DNA of 26,577 nt from a virus. The DNA is taken from the IMG/VR virus record IMGVR_UViG_3300028920_000240, positions 1-26,577 of that record, one strand, 5' to 3'. Shown piece after piece: positions 11,521 to 22,981 of the stretch (the first letter of the stretch is position 1; every line of letters starts with the position of its first letter). The position numbers and the translations under genes are program-made. The notes under the pieces were generated by a model. That model did no database searches. It was not told where the DNA came from and saw only the letters and a list, made by a program, of their open reading frames with translations.

Positions 11521-12432
11521 TTATGCAACACCATCCGAACCGTAGATGCCCAAGTAGTCAAAGGCACCATGGGAGAGCCGTGCGCTAATAATCCAGCTAC
11601 GACTCTCATTCGTCGCGGTATTGACCACACGCACTCTCGGCTTGCGCCGGAAGTAGAAGTCAATAGGCGACTTGCGTGCCAAGAGATACCACGCTGCTGA
11701 AGCGGTCAGATAATGACCGATCACATAGCGCAGACCCTTTTTTCGGACCGCATTGGTTTCGTTGGTGGACTTGTAGGCAACCTTGTCGCTTTCCAAGATC
11801 TCCACGGCTGTCCGCTCTTCATTCGGGTGAATAACCAGCTTTTCCATAATGACCATTGCCGGGTTGCCAGCGTGGTCCTTGAGGGTCGCCATAGAGTTCA
11901 GTCCTGCCCACACTGCATCAATGCCGAGCGTTACGTCCGTAGAGGGCGCATTGCTCTGCGTACCGCCACCAGAACCCGTCCACGCAGCGTGGTTGGTCTG
12001 GATCAGGTACTCATCGGTGCCGTTCGCCGGGATTGTGGCGACCGTGAACGCGGAGTTCAGGTCATACGCACCCTGCGTTTCGATCCTGTGCGCCATTGCT
12101 CGTCCGACCGCACCAGCCGTCTTATCAAGGACGGCATGACGCTGATCTTCAAGCAACTCCTCGGAGGCAGTGACCTTGAACCCATACTTCGTGTGGGTCC
12201 ACGTCTTGCTCTGCCCCTCGACGAACTGCGCCTCGGGGATCTGTTCAAACTCACCGACCTCGCCCGGCATGGTGAGTTCAGTCGCGCCACTCGCACGTTC
12301 CTCAGAGTTTTCCGAAGACATGACGTTGCACCACTGTGGGTATTCTTTCGGCCAGGTTGACAGCTCTTGGTAAAAATACCGCGAGACCCTGGCATCGAGC
12401 AAATTGCTCATTTGTGAGCTGAGCATAGCCAT
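11521..12432 (-). CDS. Major capsid protein, Mu gpT-like HK97 fold (303 aa)
   Basis: The sequence shows the pattern of the Mu gpT-type major head protein family: an N-terminal helix, a TKYGFKVTASEELLEDQ segment (about residues 82-98), the 'Q-T-N-H-A-A-W-T' turn, a long central helix with SMATLKDHAGNPA, the strand MVIMEKLVIHPNEERTAVEIL, YLTASAAWYLL and a basic C-terminal RRKPRVRV strand. This family has the HK97 fold and forms the icosahedral shell. Length is typical. GAGGAGAAACTACA precedes the ATG. It follows the decoration-like gene and scaffold in the usual head order. No protease is visible, so assembly probably uses the separate scaffold. Confidence 0.85.
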   Translation of the reverse strand: MAMLSSQMSNLLDARVSRYFYQELSTWPKEYPQWCNVMSSENSEERASGATELTMPGEVGEFEQIPEAQFVEGQSKTWTHTKYGFKVTASEELLEDQRHAVLDKTAGAVGRAMAHRIETQGAYDLNSAFTVATIPANGTDEYLIQTNHAAWTGSGGGTQSNAPSTDVTLGIDAVWAGLNSMATLKDHAGNPAMVIMEKLVIHPNEERTAVEILESDKVAYKSTNETNAVRKKGLRYVIGHYLTASAAWYLLARKSPIDFYFRRKPRVRVVNTATNESRSWIISARLSHGAFDYLGIYGSDGVA

Positions 12433-12464: not shown

Positions 12465-12959
12465 TTACGCGTCCTCAACGTCGGCCTGTACCCCGGTCAG
12501 GAACCGGAACACAACACGCGCATTGGTGTCGCCAATCGCCGACCCTGGGGCCGGGCGAATGACATGCACCAACTTGGTCGAGGTGTCGCTCTGGTCAACT
12601 GTCCACTCGCCGTTCGTCTGCTTGAGCAGGCTGTAGTCGGTGTCCAGATGAGCAGCCGTCAACTCTAGGTCTGACGTGCCGTTCATAAAGTTCCCGACAA
12701 ACAGGTTGTAGTCGTTGGCCTCGTAGTATGGCTGCTTACTGCCAGCCGTCCCGGTGGCGTCTGCGGCAGCGATGCCCGTAATGAGCGTCGCGTCCGTTCC
12801 GCCTGCCCACTCCTCGCCTTCCTGGGAGCTGCCGTCGTAAACGAGCGGAGCACCTTCCACGTAGGTCTGGGAGGCTTCCTCACCCAGTCCGGTGTAGCGC
12901 ACACCATCCACCCCATCCTGATTAAGGATGCGAATAGGCATCAGGTTAATAGTCGCCAT
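12465..12959 (-). CDS. Putative capsid decoration protein (164 aa)
   Basis: A small, acidic, beta-rich protein without signal peptide, encoded between the scaffold-side genes and the major capsid gene. Motifs such as EGAPLVYD and LITGIAAADATG, together with size and position, resemble head-decoration or stabilisation proteins that cap HK97 shells. That assignment is by context. TAGGAGAGGAAA precedes the ATG at 12959. A structural match to a lambda gpD/P22 Dec-like beta-tulip fold would settle it. Confidence 0.5.
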   Translation of the reverse strand: MATINLMPIRILNQDGVDGVRYTGLGEEASQTYVEGAPLVYDGSSQEGEEWAGGTDATLITGIAAADATGTAGSKQPYYEANDYNLFVGNFMNGTSDLELTAAHLDTDYSLLKQTNGEWTVDQSDTSTKLVHVIRPAPGSAIGDTNARVVFRFLTGVQADVEDA

Positions 12960-14241: not shown

Positions 14242-16365
14242 TTACGCTGCCGTCGGGGGAACTTGCGAACCCCCCTGGACATTGCCTAGGCCGCCACTGA
14301 TTTGACGGCCAAAATCTTGGCCTGGGGTTGGGGACTCAATCGCTCCCGGCGGCCCAAACGAAACCGAGTTCGGTTGCTGAATCCCCGCTCCCAGGACGTT
14401 CTGTTTCTGCTCCTTTTGATCGGCCAAATGCCGTTTGAGCAGCGCGATATTCTGTTTAGATCCGTTGTTCTGCTCGGCCTCAAAGATGCCGCGTTCATGT
14501 ACGATGATATGAACGTCGTCATCATCGCCAGCATCCACCTCGTCGTACCGGCCAGCCTGCAACATAATCTGGTTTTCAATTAGTGCGGCCTTGAAGGCCT
14601 GTAGTCGGCTCTCGGCGTTCACAAAACGGTTAGGGTCCAGTCGTCTACTTGCGTAGATTTCACGCAACAATTCGCCCCGGTTGGTAAGGGAATCTTGCCC
14701 CGTAATCTGATAAATTTGCAAAAGCTGCTGTGTTCGCTCGGCTTCGGTCGTGAAGTTCTTGACGCCCTCAGCCACGATATCGTACCGGCGCGAGAGGATA
14801 TCTGATGCGTACTGACTGATATCCATTCCCGCGTTGCCCAGTAGCTCGACCAGTAGCTCGGGCTTCATGGCCGTTTGAACATAGGCCGCGAACTTCGACA
14901 TGTACCCGACAATGATCGCGTCCTCGAAACGCGCAATCGCCTCGTAAATCGGCGTAGTCGCTGCCGCTTTGTTGCCCAGGTACGAGCTGGCACTTTCCCT
15001 GCCGCCTGCGGCAATGCCCATTACCGGGTTCGTGGCGTGCAGCGTTTCCTTGATCTGGTTCTGTAACCACTCCAGTTGCGTCAGGTTGGTTGCGGTCAAG
15101 TCCTTGATATCCAATTCCTTGACCAGATCGCTTGGGCTGCCGGTGCATGGGATAGATTCCTGTGCGTCAAAATCGTAGTCCTGCATTTCTGGGATGTTGA
15201 GTACGTCGAAAATCAGGGACCGCCGGTTGTTTTTCTCGCGGTTGTCGATAAGCTGGTTCTGCGTGATCTGGCATTGCTTGTAGTAGCTTTCCACGCGCTG
15301 GGAACGGGGCTGGTGGTAAAACCCGATATCATCCTCACTCTCATGCGCAGCGAGTAGCGGGACGCCAAGCGGGAACGCGTTCGGCTCGGCCAGCAGGATA
15401 TGAGGATCGTTCGGATCGCCAAGGATTACGACCTTGTGCCGGTAGGTCGGAGCGTCCTGGTCCCAACGCCCGCCCTTGCGTTTTGGTCCATACTTGACCG
15501 GCAGATTAATCCAGATAGTCCATTTCGTGTAACGCGTAGTTGAGGCGTAGGTTGCGTCGCCGTCGATGCCAGCCTCCTCCTGCGCGCGGATACGGGCGTC
15601 GGCGTACTGGCTCTCCTTATCGACCAGATACCGGCTCATTTTGTCAAGGTTGCGTTCCTCGGCAGGCGGAAGCACAAAGTCGGGGTTCGTCATCAGTTCG
15701 GTCCATCCAACATCTTCCTTGAGGAAAATCGCAGCTTGCTCGTCAAGATCCTCGGTGTCGGTGTCCAGCCAAGCGTTCTTGAGGTTGATCGCCCGTAGGC
15801 CTGGGCCGAAGTATTCCCTGCATGGCTCAAATCCGTTGCCGGACCACGTAGACAGGTCGTAGTTCTTCTCAACCCACGGCACGCCCACGATACAGTTGCC
15901 GTCTTTCCAAAACTGATGGGCTGCCTTGGATATTGCGGTTTTGGTGCCGGGCTGCTTGAAAGCCATATGCAGGAGTTCCGTCATTGCTCTTGAGGCCAGT
16001 TCTCGTAATGGTTTTTCGCGATCATCGGGCGTGCCCGTGGCAACGAACCGGTAATCCTGCAAATGGTCGTAGAGCGCCTTGACCGTCATGGCCTTGAGTT
16101 GGTGGACCGCAACGGCAAAGGTGGAGATGGCGGTTTCGGCACGAGACTCGTACTTGGTAGCGAGCGGCTTACAGCGCATCATTTTGTCTGCGGTTTCCAA
16201 AATATCATTGAGTTCCTCGCGCGATTGGTCGATGTTGGACCAGCGCGACATGACTAACAGGCGGATCTGTTCTGCGAGATTCTTGTCCTTGGCTAAGTTG
16301 GGGAGGTTGCCGCGTTTCCTGCCTGCTTGGAGCTTGGTCACATCGAAGTCGTATACGCTGGCCAT
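14242..16365 (-). CDS. Portal protein (707 aa)
   Basis: The gene lies first in the structural operon, before the scaffold and capsid. The product is the size of large podovirus-type portals. The N-terminus has a helical region with DQSREELNDILE, followed by a stem/wing region with aromatic strands (WTIWINLPVKYGP), a VESYYKQCQITQNQLIDN helix and a NPVMGIAAGGRESASS segment typical of portal proteins around the crown/stem transition. The C-terminus is Gln/Gly/Pro-rich and flexible. AAGGAAAAACATT precedes the ATG at 16365. It would form the dodecameric DNA channel at one capsid vertex. Expression is unusual: an intrinsic terminator lies only ~24 bases upstream. Confidence 0.8.
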   Translation of the reverse strand: MASVYDFDVTKLQAGRKRGNLPNLAKDKNLAEQIRLLVMSRWSNIDQSREELNDILETADKMMRCKPLATKYESRAETAISTFAVAVHQLKAMTVKALYDHLQDYRFVATGTPDDREKPLRELASRAMTELLHMAFKQPGTKTAISKAAHQFWKDGNCIVGVPWVEKNYDLSTWSGNGFEPCREYFGPGLRAINLKNAWLDTDTEDLDEQAAIFLKEDVGWTELMTNPDFVLPPAEERNLDKMSRYLVDKESQYADARIRAQEEAGIDGDATYASTTRYTKWTIWINLPVKYGPKRKGGRWDQDAPTYRHKVVILGDPNDPHILLAEPNAFPLGVPLLAAHESEDDIGFYHQPRSQRVESYYKQCQITQNQLIDNREKNNRRSLIFDVLNIPEMQDYDFDAQESIPCTGSPSDLVKELDIKDLTATNLTQLEWLQNQIKETLHATNPVMGIAAGGRESASSYLGNKAAATTPIYEAIARFEDAIIVGYMSKFAAYVQTAMKPELLVELLGNAGMDISQYASDILSRRYDIVAEGVKNFTTEAERTQQLLQIYQITGQDSLTNRGELLREIYASRRLDPNRFVNAESRLQAFKAALIENQIMLQAGRYDEVDAGDDDDVHIIVHERGIFEAEQNNGSKQNIALLKRHLADQKEQKQNVLGAGIQQPNSVSFGPPGAIESPTPGQDFGRQISGGLGNVQGGSQVPPTAA

Positions 16366-16613: not shown

Positions 16614-17267
16614 CTATTTTGTTTTGTCAAGTAAATTCCGCAGGCTTTGTCGCTTTTCTGTGAAGACCATGAGATTTGTGCCTCTGGTGACGTAGCCCGT
16701 GGTAGCATGTACCACTGTGACGCCCCAATCCACCCAGCATTCGTACCCGCAAGCCTGCGCTTTCAGGCAGAACATAAAGTCTTCCGTCTGCGTGAATTGC
16801 CGATACGTGACGAACGCGAACCACGGGAACGGGATTTTTCGAAGCACGTCGGTTTTGATAAGCCAGATCCCGCCGCCAAACCCAGACACAGCCTCCAGTC
16901 CCGTGTCTTTGGTCTTGGCAGTGCGGAACATATGCGTGTTTGGGTCGTACTTGTCGTAGACGTGCGGTCTATGCGGGTGGCACCGGGCACAGCCCCACGC
17001 GGCCACAATGTCCTTGTCGTCCGCATAGAGCCGCTTGAACGCGTCAGGCTCCCACCCAACGTCGTTGGACGTGAGGACCAGATAGTCTGCCTCTGTGCGC
17101 AGTGCCTCGTCAGCGAGCAGGTTACAGGCCGCAGGCGTCACATGTCCTACGGGCCATCGCATTTCAACGTGCCAATCCTCCGGCCATTGCGTCAGCGCCA
17201 GCGACTGCGCAAACCAGCGGTAGCAGAAATCATTCGCAAACGGCGTGCCGATCAGGACTTTTTTCAT
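16614..17267 (-). CDS. GT-A-fold glycosyltransferase (217 aa)
   Basis: The start ATG 17267 has GGAG eight bases upstream. A TTG six codons earlier is in frame but puts the site inside the gene. The pattern fits family-2-like GT-A enzymes: an N-terminal nucleotide-binding strand (KVLIGTPF), YLVLTSNDVGWEPDAF at 62-77 where the metal-binding DxD normally sits, GFGGGIWLIKTDVLRKI (129-145), TEDFMFCLKAQACGY (161-175) with the probable acceptor acidic pair E162/D163, and a VVH at 185-187. The usual DxD is SND, so metal binding may be altered. It would transfer a sugar from a nucleotide-sugar, perhaps to virion protein, DNA base or host surface. The target cannot be told. It overlaps the preceding gene by 38 bases. 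Confidence 0.7.
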   Translation of the reverse strand: MKKVLIGTPFANDFCYRWFAQSLALTQWPEDWHVEMRWPVGHVTPAACNLLADEALRTEADYLVLTSNDVGWEPDAFKRLYADDKDIVAAWGCARCHPHRPHVYDKYDPNTHMFRTAKTKDTGLEAVSGFGGGIWLIKTDVLRKIPFPWFAFVTYRQFTQTEDFMFCLKAQACGYECWVDWGVTVVHATTGYVTRGTNLMVFTEKRQSLRNLLDKTK

Positions 17268-17565
17268 CGCTGGCGCTCCAATCAATCTTTGATACGCGTT
17301 CCGTCATGGCCTCGACCATGGCCTTCGTTACTTCCCCTTGCGCCTCCGCCATGTTCAGTTGTAGCGCCTCAATCAGGAATTTCTGCATATCGGCGATACT
17401 TGCAAAGGAGAGTTTCGGAATCATGGCGCTTACTTGGAACAGGCGCAAATAGACCCGTCCGTCCTTGTAGCTGTACCGCAGAGTGGATTGCACGGGCGGC
17501 AACGGCGGCGACAGGACAAACACGTTTTTTCTGTGATCCCAGTCGTAGACAATCAAATCGGTCAC
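17230..17565 (-). CDS. Small protein of unknown function in packaging operon (111 aa)
   Basis: GTG at 17565 overlaps the GroES-like stop codon in CAGTGACC, and GGGAGG lies at the right distance. The N-terminal half has beta strands (LIVYDWDHRKNVFVLS, VYLRLFQVS), the C-terminal half a helix. No motif is recognised. The 3' end overlaps the glycosyltransferase start. It is probably co-translated with the co-chaperone and could act with it, but that is only context. Confidence 0.6.
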   Translation of the reverse strand: MTDLIVYDWDHRKNVFVLSPPLPPVQSTLRYSYKDGRVYLRLFQVSAMIPKLSFASIADMQKFLIEALQLNMAEAQGEVTKAMVEAMTERVSKIDWSASDEKSPDRHAVCE

Positions 17566-18443
17566 TGGTCGTACCTCCCAAGCACGTCGCCTTCCTCGAT
17601 CAGCCGGATCAGCGGGTTCGTTGGCTCAATCGTGGTGCCGGGCAGGCCCATGGTGGATTCTGCCAGCCTGACCAGTACCCGGTCCCCGACCTTGATCTTC
17701 TTGTTTTCGACCTGTTCGCCGAGCGCCTTGATCTCGCCAATGGGCGATTCCTTGACGGTTTTCTGCGGCAACGCGATGTCCGGTGCGGTGGGCAGGGCCA
17801 AGCCTTGGTTTGGCAGAACGATTAGTTCCGAGCCCCTTGTCTCGAATTCGATGAGGATTTCGTTTCCGATTGGCTCAAATTGCGCCATTTTGCCCTCCTG
17901 TGTGCGTACTTTCGCCAATGCCTCGTTGATAAGGTGCCGGTCGTGGCCCTGTTCCTTGAGCCTGAACGCGAGGCTGGGCTCGTATACGATCTGGTCGCCC
18001 GCCACGATCTTGTCCGCTTCGTCGCTCGCGCGCACCACGGTCCCCAAAACCCGTTCTTTCTTGCTCTTGTCGGGCAGTAGAATCCCCCCAATCTCCTCGA
18101 TCATGGGCTCTGGCTCGACCAGGACGTAACCGTTGACCGGCATAACCTTCTCGCGTCCATGTTTGCCGCGCAGGCAGGCCAAGATAGACCAGTCCAGCGT
18201 CATGGCTATAAGTCGGTCGCGGAACGGCAGGATTGTCTCTGCTGACCGATAGATAATCTTGGCCCCAGGTTTCAGGTGATTGCTCTTGACCTTTTCGCCC
18301 ACGCGCTGAATATCGGCAATGATTTCATGCAGGCGGTAGACATCGGGAACCTCGATGACGCCATACTTCTCGCGGGCAGGTTCGCGTTTGATCGTCAGCC
18401 AATGTCCTATCGGTTGCAGGCCGTCGTGATCTACAAGTATCAT
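17562..18443 (-). CDS. Three-domain GroES (Cpn10)-like co-chaperonin
   Basis: Three copies of the GroES fold are visible. Domain 1 (about 10-93) has HWLTIKREP, mobile-loop-like GVIEVP (28-33) and HLKPGAKIIYRS, then SILACL. Domain 2 (100-182) has GYVLVEPEP, the canonical loop GGILLPD (119-125), and IVAGDQIVYEP. Domain 3 (186-293) has NEILIEF, SELIVLP (205-211), GEIKALG, KVGDRVLVRL and ends LIRLIEEGDVLGRYD. Each has a hydrophobic loop able to dock on GroEL, a 'G-x-V/I-x-A-x-G' strand and a 'K-x-G-D/A-x-V/I' strand. Bacterial GroES has one domain and is a heptamer; phage gp31/CocO are also single-domain. The gene overlaps its neighbours by 4 bases on each side. It likely replaces or modifies GroES in capsid folding. 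Confidence 0.85.
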   Translation of the reverse strand: MILVDHDGLQPIGHWLTIKREPAREKYGVIEVPDVYRLHEIIADIQRVGEKVKSNHLKPGAKIIYRSAETILPFRDRLIAMTLDWSILACLRGKHGREKVMPVNGYVLVEPEPMIEEIGGILLPDKSKKERVLGTVVRASDEADKIVAGDQIVYEPSLAFRLKEQGHDRHLINEALAKVRTQEGKMAQFEPIGNEILIEFETRGSELIVLPNQGLALPTAPDIALPQKTVKESPIGEIKALGEQVENKKIKVGDRVLVRLAESTMGLPGTTIEPTNPLIRLIEEGDVLGRYDQ

Positions 18444-18730
18444 TCGCTTCCCTCCGATTGCATCAGCCGTTTACGCAAAGTGTACAGGTCTTTGCAGAGT
18501 TGCACGCGCTCATTAATGAGCCCGTCCTGTAGTCCTTGCCCGTATGGGTTGTCTGTCGTACACGCCGTCAGCTTGACGGTTACTACCCGCCAGTTCGCCC
18601 AATCGATCAACGCCTGCCACGCTGCGCTACAGACCGCATCCGCCAATGCGGCCTGTATCTCCGAGTCTAACATTTTCTCTGGCGAAATAATATTTTTCCG
18701 CGACTCACGAAGCAGGTCTTGTGCCTTCAT
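18440..18730 (-). CDS. Small helical protein of unknown function (96 aa)
   Basis: ATG at 18730 overlaps the TerL stop (CGATGA) and the stop overlaps the next ATG, both four-base overlaps, so it is translated as part of one coupled chain. The protein is mostly alpha-helical with two Trp (SAAWQALIDWANWRVV) and a basic C-terminus. No motif is recognised. Location between the terminase and the co-chaperonin suggests a packaging- or head-related role. Confidence 0.65.
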   Translation of the reverse strand: MKAQDLLRESRKNIISPEKMLDSEIQAALADAVCSAAWQALIDWANWRVVTVKLTACTTDNPYGQGLQDGLINERVQLCKDLYTLRKRLMQSEGSE

Positions 18731-20469
18731 CGTCTCCCCTTTTTTATGACTTTCAACTTGTCTCTGCTCACAGCGATAGCCTTGGAGTAGCGCGCTGCCA
18801 TGTATTCCAGGCAGTCGATAAGGTGGTCATCCTTGTCCTGCCGCGTTTCCTTGGGATTATGGCGATCCTCGCCGTGCATGCGCTGGTCTTGCAGGCAATG
18901 CTCAATTTCGTCTACCAAGTGTCGGCATTTTGTGCTGATATAAAGGCGCGGAGCGCCCGCCTTGCCGGTTACAAGATGCCGGCGGAACTGGTCTACGCGG
19001 AGCATTGAGCGCAGGCATTGCGCGCGCTGCTCGATCTTGTCCTCCACGCTTTTTTGAACAGGCAGCCCGCCAAGCTGGAAATACCTGGCGATGCTCAGAC
19101 CGCCGCCCGACTCGCTAAAGCAATGCCAGTCCAATTCGGTTCGCTCGTATGCTTCTCCGCCAAGCCGTGCGCCTTTCAGATGCGGGCGCTGCTCCTTGAA
19201 CTGCTGCATGACCCCGCTATGCGTGCCGATTTGTCCGACCAGCTTGCGGATATTGCCGCTCTGCTTGATGATCGCCTCTGCGTGGTCGTATGCCTGTTTT
19301 TTGCGCACGTAATACTCGTCATACACCACAAATTCGCCCATATTGCTGATCCAAACCCACAGACAGGCGGTAGGTGCTGACCAGCCATAGTCAAGGAACC
19401 GAGCGAAGCGACCGGGTAGTTTCTTGAGGTCGTCGTAGCGCCACGTAATCAGGTGGTAATTGCGCGAAAACTCAGGATAGAACACGGCAGCCGGTGCCTG
19501 CGATATGCCGTAGTAGCGGGCCTGCCCCTCGCGCATGGCGGCCTCGTCCCCGCGCTGTTTCGGCAGCAGCACCCATTTCTTGTACGCGGCCTTTTTTTGT
19601 TTTTCTGGGTACAGGTGCTCGGGTACGTCGTCTACCGTGATCCGGGTCCGCAGCACTTCTTTGCCCTGCGTGTTGGTGCCATCCCACATGGGGTCGAGCC
19701 AGCTTGCCGTCCCGGTATCTGCCCTACCCTCAACCTTGTGAGGCGTATACGACGACACCCATATGGTGCCAAGGTCGCTTACGTTGCGCCCACGTTCGTC
19801 CACCTCGTTGAAATGACTCAACGGGATCTGCTCGTCGGCCATGGCGTAGTGGGCGACCATGCCTGCGCCAGCGGACGCAGACTGCTCATAGGACATAAAT
19901 ACGAGCCGACTTTCGGACTCGCTCAGCGTGATCTCGGGGTGGCGCTCCCAGGCCGGAGTTTTGCTTCCGCCCCGGCGGTAATCGCCCAGTTCCCAGTCTG
20001 GCGTCCATTTCTGGACCTCGGGCCATAGCGTCCGGCGCAGCCATCCCTTATCGTAGCCGTACAGGATGAACACTTTCGGCCCTTCCCAATGCGGCCTTTT
20101 CACCCCGAATTTCTTGAAAATCGGCCAATCCGCGCCCGTTTTGATAGCACGAAGGATAAGTTTCACCAACGCAAGGCAGCTTTTGCCGGTGCGGTTCGGG
20201 GACTTGTTCATGTAAAAATTGAATTCGTCGTCGTTCAGCCAGTCCAGGGCCGAGACAAGGTGGCAGCCTGCGTCGGGCGCGAATCTGGCGTGCCCGTGCG
20301 GGATGAAGAACTGGATCGGGTTCTCCTCGTTCTTCTTGAACAGGGCAGCGATATCCTGTGCCAGCCCGGGGTCGTTATCCACCTCAGACCGATCAAACGT
20401 CTGTGGCGGCATGCTCCCCAGGCGCAGGACTATCTGCCCCGCCTGGTCCGGTGTCACTATCTGAGTCAA
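18727..20469 (-). CDS. terL: Terminase large subunit (580 aa)
   Basis: The ATPase domain carries a Walker A-like S90-P-N-R-T-G-K-S97 and the Walker B end A-M-A-D212-E213 with a GTIWVSSYTP coupling strand (234-243). The C-terminal nuclease (RNase H-like) domain has FLDYGWS with D360 and DKDDHLIDCLEYMA with D547/D548. The middle acid of the usual triad is not obvious, the corresponding region reading GTHSGV. The protein pumps DNA into the prohead through the portal and cuts concatemers. TTG at 20469 is preceded by GAGGTGA, a perfect anti-Shine-Dalgarno match. The gene overlaps the small-subunit-like gene by 77 bases. Confidence 0.9.
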   Translation of the reverse strand: MTQIVTPDQAGQIVLRLGSMPPQTFDRSEVDNDPGLAQDIAALFKKNEENPIQFFIPHGHARFAPDAGCHLVSALDWLNDDEFNFYMNKSPNRTGKSCLALVKLILRAIKTGADWPIFKKFGVKRPHWEGPKVFILYGYDKGWLRRTLWPEVQKWTPDWELGDYRRGGSKTPAWERHPEITLSESESRLVFMSYEQSASAGAGMVAHYAMADEQIPLSHFNEVDERGRNVSDLGTIWVSSYTPHKVEGRADTGTASWLDPMWDGTNTQGKEVLRTRITVDDVPEHLYPEKQKKAAYKKWVLLPKQRGDEAAMREGQARYYGISQAPAAVFYPEFSRNYHLITWRYDDLKKLPGRFARFLDYGWSAPTACLWVWISNMGEFVVYDEYYVRKKQAYDHAEAIIKQSGNIRKLVGQIGTHSGVMQQFKEQRPHLKGARLGGEAYERTELDWHCFSESGGGLSIARYFQLGGLPVQKSVEDKIEQRAQCLRSMLRVDQFRRHLVTGKAGAPRLYISTKCRHLVDEIEHCLQDQRMHGEDRHNPKETRQDKDDHLIDCLEYMAARYSKAIAVSRDKLKVIKKGRR

Positions 20470-21269: not shown

Positions 21270-21344
21270 TGGTCGCAGGGGTGGGAGTCGAACCCACTTA
21301 AGAAGGGCATGAGCCTTCCCTCTGAACCGTCCGAGTCCCCTGCA
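21270..21344 (-). tRNA. tRNA with anticodon CAU, Met-like, with unusual D-arm
   Basis: Reading the minus strand from 21344: acceptor TGCAGGG/CCCTGCG (7 bp, first pair T-G), bases G8-A9, a 3-bp D-stem CTC/GAG, anticodon stem GAAGG/CCTTC with loop CTCATGC (anticodon CAT at 21311-21309), variable TTAA, T-stem GTGGG/CCCAC with canonical loop TTCGACT, then A and an encoded CCA. Acceptor, anticodon and T-arms are perfect, so it is a genuine tRNA gene. U8 is replaced by G and A14 is missing. The anticodon stem lacks the three G-C pairs of initiator tRNA, so it is an elongator-Met or lysidine-modified Ile candidate. Confidence 0.8.
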
Positions 21345-22294: not shown

Positions 22295-22981
22295 TCAATG
22301 ACTCCCAAGGATATACCGAACCGTGCTGGCATACCAGCGGCAGCCACGTTTCGTACATACTTCACCACTGTTCAGACCATCGGCTATCGCTTGCAAACTC
22401 CTCCCCTCTCCTCGCTCCCGCTTCATCCGCTCTATAACCTCCTGCTCTCGGGCTACCTTAACCAAATCTTCCCCCACCTGCTTGTACCCAAACGGTATAG
22501 GCCCATACACCTTCCCGTGCGCTTTCTTGTATTGCAGCGCCGCCGTAGTCCGTTCCCGGATGAAATTCCGCTCCAACTCCGCAAATGCCGCCGTCATCGT
22601 CAAAAACATGCGGCCCATGCTCGTCTTCGTGTTCACCGCCTGCCCACCAAAATCCACGAAATGCAACGCAATCCCCGCCTTGTCCCATTCGCTCGTCTGC
22701 CTCAACGCGTCCGCAGCGTCCCGAAACAGCCGATCCAACTTTAAGCACACCACGTGCCCAACACCCTCACCACCCAGTAACCGCAGCAATTCCTTCCCCC
22801 CGTCACGCTTCCCCAACTCCTTCCCACCACTCACCCCGTTGTCCTTCACCACACCCACAACCTCAAGCCCCTGCGACTCGCAATACGCACAAACCCGCTC
22901 CTCTTGCACGTCAAGACTCACCCCGCCCCGCGCCTGCTCTCGCGTACTCACCCGCACGTACCCTACCGCTTTATCACTCAT
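22295..22981 (-). CDS. Serine recombinase, compact form (228 aa)
   Basis: The resolvase domain opens with VGYVRVSTREQ; S12 is the nucleophile, with R10 and D83-R84-L-F-R87 supplying the catalytic arginines. The long helix after MGRMFLTMTAAFAELERNFI (122-141) is the dimer helix of this fold. After about 160 comes a short recombinase-type DNA-binding region (PFGYKQ, IADGLN, W-STVRYIL) ending at 228, without the zinc ribbon and coiled coil of large serine integrases. It cuts DNA at paired sites by rotating strand ends and could integrate, invert or resolve DNA. GGGGAGG precedes the ATG. Confidence 0.9.
   Translation of the reverse strand: MSDKAVGYVRVSTREQARGGVSLDVQEERVCAYCESQGLEVVGVVKDNGVSGGKELGKRDGGKELLRLLGGEGVGHVVCLKLDRLFRDAADALRQTSEWDKAGIALHFVDFGGQAVNTKTSMGRMFLTMTAAFAELERNFIRERTTAALQYKKAHGKVYGPIPFGYKQVGEDLVKVAREQEVIERMKRERGEGRSLQAIADGLNSGEVCTKRGCRWYASTVRYILGSH

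Follow-up and report, generated by a model that had tools for sequence, protein, structure and literature searches.

Plastids are the main known source of natural co-chaperonins in which the number of domains is not a divisor of seven, and the working stoichiometry of these plastid proteins is a subject of argument. The Cpn20 proteins of chloroplasts and apicoplasts carry two Cpn10 domains arranged head to tail; a tetramer of one of them, Pf-cpn20, replaces GroES (PMC3542282), and the chains counted in the structure 7ekq (two Cpn20, one Cpn23, and one Cpn11) give seven domains in total. The mobile loop of GroES holds a conserved GroEL-docking tripeptide, I25/V26/L27 (PMC5575113). Engineered concatemers of six to eight covalently linked, identical GroES modules also work with GroEL even when they do not supply exactly seven domains, as those with six or eight show (PMC5780408, PMC5575113). 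Among phage proteins, T4 gp31, a single domain of 111 aa that forms heptamers, replaces GroES in T4 capsid folding (PMC6318259).

Here, we analyzed a window of 26,577 bases that comprises an entire virus record, which is classed as linear; an earlier note had described in it a phage protein with three tandem GroES-like domains. The coordinates it gave for the gene, 17562–18443, are right; the strand, which it had not given, is the minus strand, and on the plus strand the frame is interrupted by stops. The gene encodes 293 aa, with an ATG at 18443 and a stop at 17562. At its 5' end the ATG shares bases with the stop codon of the preceding ORF (ATGA), and at its 3' end the stop codon overlaps the following ORF, which starts with GTG. 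In GC content, both overall and at third codon positions, the gene is similar to its neighbors.

According to sequence profiles and, for domains 2 and 3, a structural model, the protein is composed of three tandem Cpn10/GroES domains, domain 1 being assigned from sequence profiles alone. Domain 1, which is Cpn10-like and carries the family signature TxLPFxDRxxAxT, spans residues 8–93 (18165..18422, minus strand), domain 2 spans residues 97–183 (17895..18155, minus), and domain 3, a Cpn10 domain with an extended mobile loop, spans residues 188–291 (17571..17882, minus). The whole protein matches the Pfam Cpn10 family (PF00166) with 49.3 bits (E 5e-13), against a cut-off of 21.1 bits. Domain 2 taken alone reaches 28.5 bits. 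For domain 3 the value is 21.7 bits, rising to 32.1 bits in the three-domain homolog of a 49 kb record (L004). Domain 1 of the window protein or of L004 gave no Pfam match by itself; orthologues of this domain in other relatives pass the Pfam cut-off with 29.8 and 27.9 bits, and Pfam Cpn10 also matches domain 2 in relatives.

Profile–profile comparison with nine independent single-domain Cpn10s (E. coli GroES, T4 gp31, and seven other phage proteins) returned 97.7% for domain 1 with the family profile, 97.5% for domain 2, and 91.1% for domain 3, while 11 unrelated phage alignments used as controls all stayed below 5%. For each domain, all 300 column shuffles scored below the observed value, and a domain 1 profile built from the window and L004 sequences alone, although lower at 37.9%, was still above every shuffle. 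More than one domain thus matches Cpn10, and the three-domain description given earlier holds by Pfam, by shuffled profile comparison and, for domain 1, through its orthologues. Searched against solved structures, the family-domain profile found Cpn20 first (E 3e-23), followed by GroES, mitochondrial Hsp10, and others. Domain 3 additionally matched PHROG 931, labeled "head morphogenesis" (E 0.0037), a label that T4 gene 31 also carries. A match to ADH_N was considered as a sign of alcohol dehydrogenase homology and rejected; the match can be put down to the GroES-like barrel common to both families, and it is weaker than those to Cpn10.

With an alignment of two sequences, AF2 prediction of the full-length protein gave a pLDDT of 31. 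Prediction of residues 96–293, which cover domains 2 and 3, with an alignment of 12 rows gave a pLDDT of 77 and a pTM of 0.69, with the lowest confidence in the two loop regions. In this alignment, domains 1 and 2 of the relatives occupy the register of window domains 2 and 3, so the modeled fold of domain 3 rests partly on the alignment. Both Foldseek and VIA returned Chlamydomonas Cpn20 (7ekq_R) as the best match of the model, with a Z-score of 12.2 over 171 residues covering both domains. Domain 2 of the model matched GroES and Cpn10 structures with Z-scores up to 10.8, and domain 3 matched gp31 in the GroEL–gp31 complex (2cgt) with a Z-score of 8.3 and an rmsd of 2.2. As modeled, domains 2 and 3 both adopt the Cpn10 beta-barrel fold, so for these two domains the structural check came out in favor of the proposed fold. 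In a separate observation, the model of domains 2 and 3 matched, over 196 columns, the viral protein A0A516L046 in BFVD (304 aa), which may, judging from this structural similarity, be another three-domain co-chaperonin.

Judged by sequence, hydrophobic docking-type tripeptides sit at the mobile-loop positions of all three domains: IEVP in domain 1, ILLP in domain 2, and IVLP/LALP/IALP in domain 3. The domain 1 motif (residues 30–33) lies in a loop with a charged residue; the loop region is poorly conserved between the window protein and L004 (4 of 19 residues), and the motif itself, I-x-[IVL]-P, is kept in 11 of 11 aligned sequences. The domain 2 motif (residues 121–124) is kept in the window protein and degenerate in several two-domain relatives, which suggests that docking is not needed of all domains. 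The domain 3 loop (residues 207–226; 17766..17825, minus), LIVLPNQGLALPTAPDIALP, is about 14 residues longer and holds three GroES-type docking motifs in the arrangement LIVLP-NQG-LALP-TAPD-IALP, which reads LIVLP-GQKG-LALP-SAPN-VVLP in L004. No other stretch of 20 residues is as well conserved between the two proteins, identity being 75% here against 41% overall. No other ORF among the 480 checked (at least 100 aa) and at most 4 of 50,000 shuffles contained three docking-type motifs within 20 residues, frequencies that are descriptive only, since the pattern was defined after the motif had been seen. The earlier note had taken SELIVLP as the mobile-loop motif of the third domain. It is the first of the three motifs in this loop but lies within the insertion of about 14 residues, and in the family alignment it is DIALP that corresponds to GGIxxP.

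In common with T4 gp31 and other phage co-chaperonins (PHROG 3188, PHROG 931), the protein is phage-encoded and combines a Cpn10 fold with a docking loop. It differs in fusing three domains, whereas gp31 and CocO-type proteins have one Cpn10 domain of ~90–111 aa per chain, and all annotated phage GroES genes that we inspected encode a single domain (87–131 aa). Cpn20, its best PDB match by both sequence and structure, shares the tandem head-to-tail arrangement and the same seven-fold mismatch but is a plastid protein with exactly two domains and ~20% identity to the window protein. The mismatch pointed out in the earlier note is real, although Cpn20, the GroES concatemers, and 7ekq are precedents for it. 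Compared with the concatemers, which are synthetic and repeat identical modules, the window protein is natural and consists of three diverged ones.

The gene lies in a head and packaging operon, transcribed on the minus strand in the order TerL (terminase large subunit, 18727..20469), a 96 aa ORF directly upstream that overlaps the co-chaperonin start (18440..18730), the co-chaperonin, a 111 aa ORF, a 223 aa protein, the portal protein (14242..16365; PHROG 332 connector), a probable scaffold, two small genes, and the major capsid protein (11521..12432; Phage_capsid_4), which is a candidate folding client. This placement, proposed in the earlier note, is kept in every relative that holds the interval. 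The relatives were gathered chiefly with a capsid protein pattern, TerL and GroES patterns having given few loci. L004, from another metagenomic phage, encodes a three-domain protein of 292 aa, 41% identical to the window protein over its length, likewise between TerL and portal. All 14 other records holding the interval (L006–L016, L018, L020, and L042), from uncultured phages, encode homologs of 175–190 aa, in ten distinct sequences, with exactly two Cpn10 domains. These proteins have orthologues of domains 1 and 2, occupy the same position between TerL and portal, and end after domain 2. Since L004 and the two-domain versions share one locus, the family forms a conserved part of the head/packaging module.

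Counting with the family profile gave three domains in the window protein and L004 and two in each of 12 other records; no further Cpn10 was found outside the co-chaperonin gene in these 14 records, most of which are fragments. A separate gene for domain 3 in the two-domain relatives was considered and rejected, there being no other Cpn10 in their records (mostly fragments). No Cpn60/GroEL was detected in the same 14 phage records, again mostly fragments, by a search that detected it in 14 of 14 control genomes. Searching isolated phages by tblastn with P0001, P0002, and L006 gave no match or one weak partial match. Portal and TerL trees unite the two three-domain phages with full support, and the three-domain form is, by sequence, a variant of one clade; as the trees have no outgroup, they are compatible with gain as well as with loss of domain 3. 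A tree of the domains did not separate an origin of domain 3 as a copy of domain 1 or 2 from acquisition of a gp31-like domain.

The earlier note had contrasted the protein with phage co-chaperonins of one domain. Single-domain versions are indeed common, but multi-domain ones are not absent, and the contrast fails on the two-domain phage family at the same locus and probably on a protein of the isolated Cellulophaga phage phi18:3 (Baltivirus; L045). Its gp96 (41458–42060; 200 aa), annotated as chaperonin cpn10, is encoded shortly upstream of TerL, from which a single gene separates it. The C-terminal domain is clearly Cpn10, and the N-terminal half has a weak profile match (17%) alongside a structural match of the whole protein; gp96 is thus probably a two-domain protein with a Cpn10-like N-terminal half. 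In contrast to the window protein it has at most two domains, and no orthology between the two was detectable. The same phage encodes a separate single-domain Cpn10, gp80 (31108–31362), a pair that resembles the pairing of Cpn20 and Cpn10 in chloroplasts.

With the anatomy of a co-chaperonin and a place in the head/packaging operon, the protein can be expected to assist the folding of capsid or portal in the manner of gp31. We consider it most likely, from sequence, model, and analogy, that it is a phage co-chaperonin, a functional analogue of gp31 and GroES with three head-to-tail Cpn10 domains serving the host GroEL, and put the probability of this reading at about 0.65. The charged residue and poor conservation of the domain 1 loop count against it, as do the degenerate domain 2 loops of several two-domain relatives. 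Having three domains where known phage versions usually have one, it would probably cap the seven-fold GroEL ring in an unusual way. Its loops would dock on the apical domains of the host ring, and the protein would form a lid suited to the phage head proteins, whether capsid, portal, or scaffold. By analogy with the known systems, the likeliest lid would contain two chains, giving six domains and one empty GroEL site, or the two chains joined by a single host GroES subunit, giving seven. Among the loops, the triple-motif loop of domain 3 could provide the firmest or the most versatile hold on GroEL. A distinctly improbable elaboration is that two chains form a six-domain lid in which the domain 3 loop binds at two or more GroEL sites or occupies the seventh, making the lid asymmetric; if true, such a self-completing lid would be a co-chaperonin architecture not described in the literature searched.

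The same protein could instead be a structural head-morphogenesis or packaging factor whose tandem Cpn10 barrels bind, for example, portal or terminase and have lost the GroEL partnership. Its strict linkage to TerL and portal in every relative would suit this role, as would the degenerate domain 2 loops in several of them; moreover, Cpn10-type modules can cap other machines, because 7ekq is titled a chloroplast ClpP complex. We nevertheless regard this as unlikely, given that all 11 domain 1 sequences keep the docking-type motif, that conservation within the three-domain pair peaks in the triple-motif loop, and that phage Cpn10s are common, with gp31 a proven co-chaperonin.

More doubtful still is a decoy or modulator whose polyvalent loops would occupy the host GroEL, or a different seven-fold ring such as ClpP, and thereby slow host folding or proteolysis. 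The gene is found in the head/packaging operon and conserved with head genes rather than in an early region, which speaks against such a role, although the polyvalent domain 3 loop is unusual and Cpn20, Cpn23, and Cpn11 do sit on ClpP in 7ekq. We give hardly any credence to an artefact, either a chimeric assembly or a chance resemblance in one or two domains. It could appeal to the missing Pfam match of window domain 1 and to the presence of domain 3 in just two sequences, but it is already contradicted by the 41% identical three-domain protein at the same place in an independent record, and the scores that no shuffle reached and the match of the model to Cpn20 also count against it. A gp31-like co-chaperonin for the host GroEL remains our preferred reading.

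No description of a natural three-domain GroES protein was found in the literature searched, a search that most subscription papers lay beyond. The genetic series of one-, two-, and three-domain proteins offers a way to probe how far GroEL tolerates symmetry mismatch, and it bears on how phages tailor the folding chamber to their head proteins. Some viral "cpn10" annotations probably conceal further multi-domain proteins.

Several minor features of the locus were also recorded. The 96 aa ORF has positional equivalents of 75–87 aa in the two-domain relatives and of 110 aa in L004, and in the window and the two-domain relatives this small ORF often overlaps the co-chaperonin start. The small ORFs of the relatives (L006:3709-3957, L007:4819-5049, L009:3643-3870, L018:3833-4096) share a pattern that is roughly EPG...E...R..G..F.DG.LKG.V. 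The 223 aa protein (16614–17285, minus) belongs to PHROG 1574, a family of unknown function; from its NDVGWEP and TEDF motifs we presume a glycosyltransferase-like fold. In the window and L004 its gene is located downstream of the co-chaperonin gene, and in L006, L007, and L014 upstream of TerL; its position is thus mobile within the packaging module. Upstream of the capsid gene, a 164 aa protein (12465–12959, minus) is encoded as a single copy in the window and in L004, L006, L007, L010, and L014, and as two tandem copies in several relatives (L009, L011, L016, L018, and L020).

No relatives of the capsid protein were found in bacterial genomes, so no host was assigned to the phage. A tRNA-Met gene (CAT; 21270–21344, minus) adjoins the packaging genes, and a serine recombinase with Resolvase and Recombinase domains is encoded near them (22295–22981, minus); their presence beside the packaging genes suggests a temperate phage or an integrated element.
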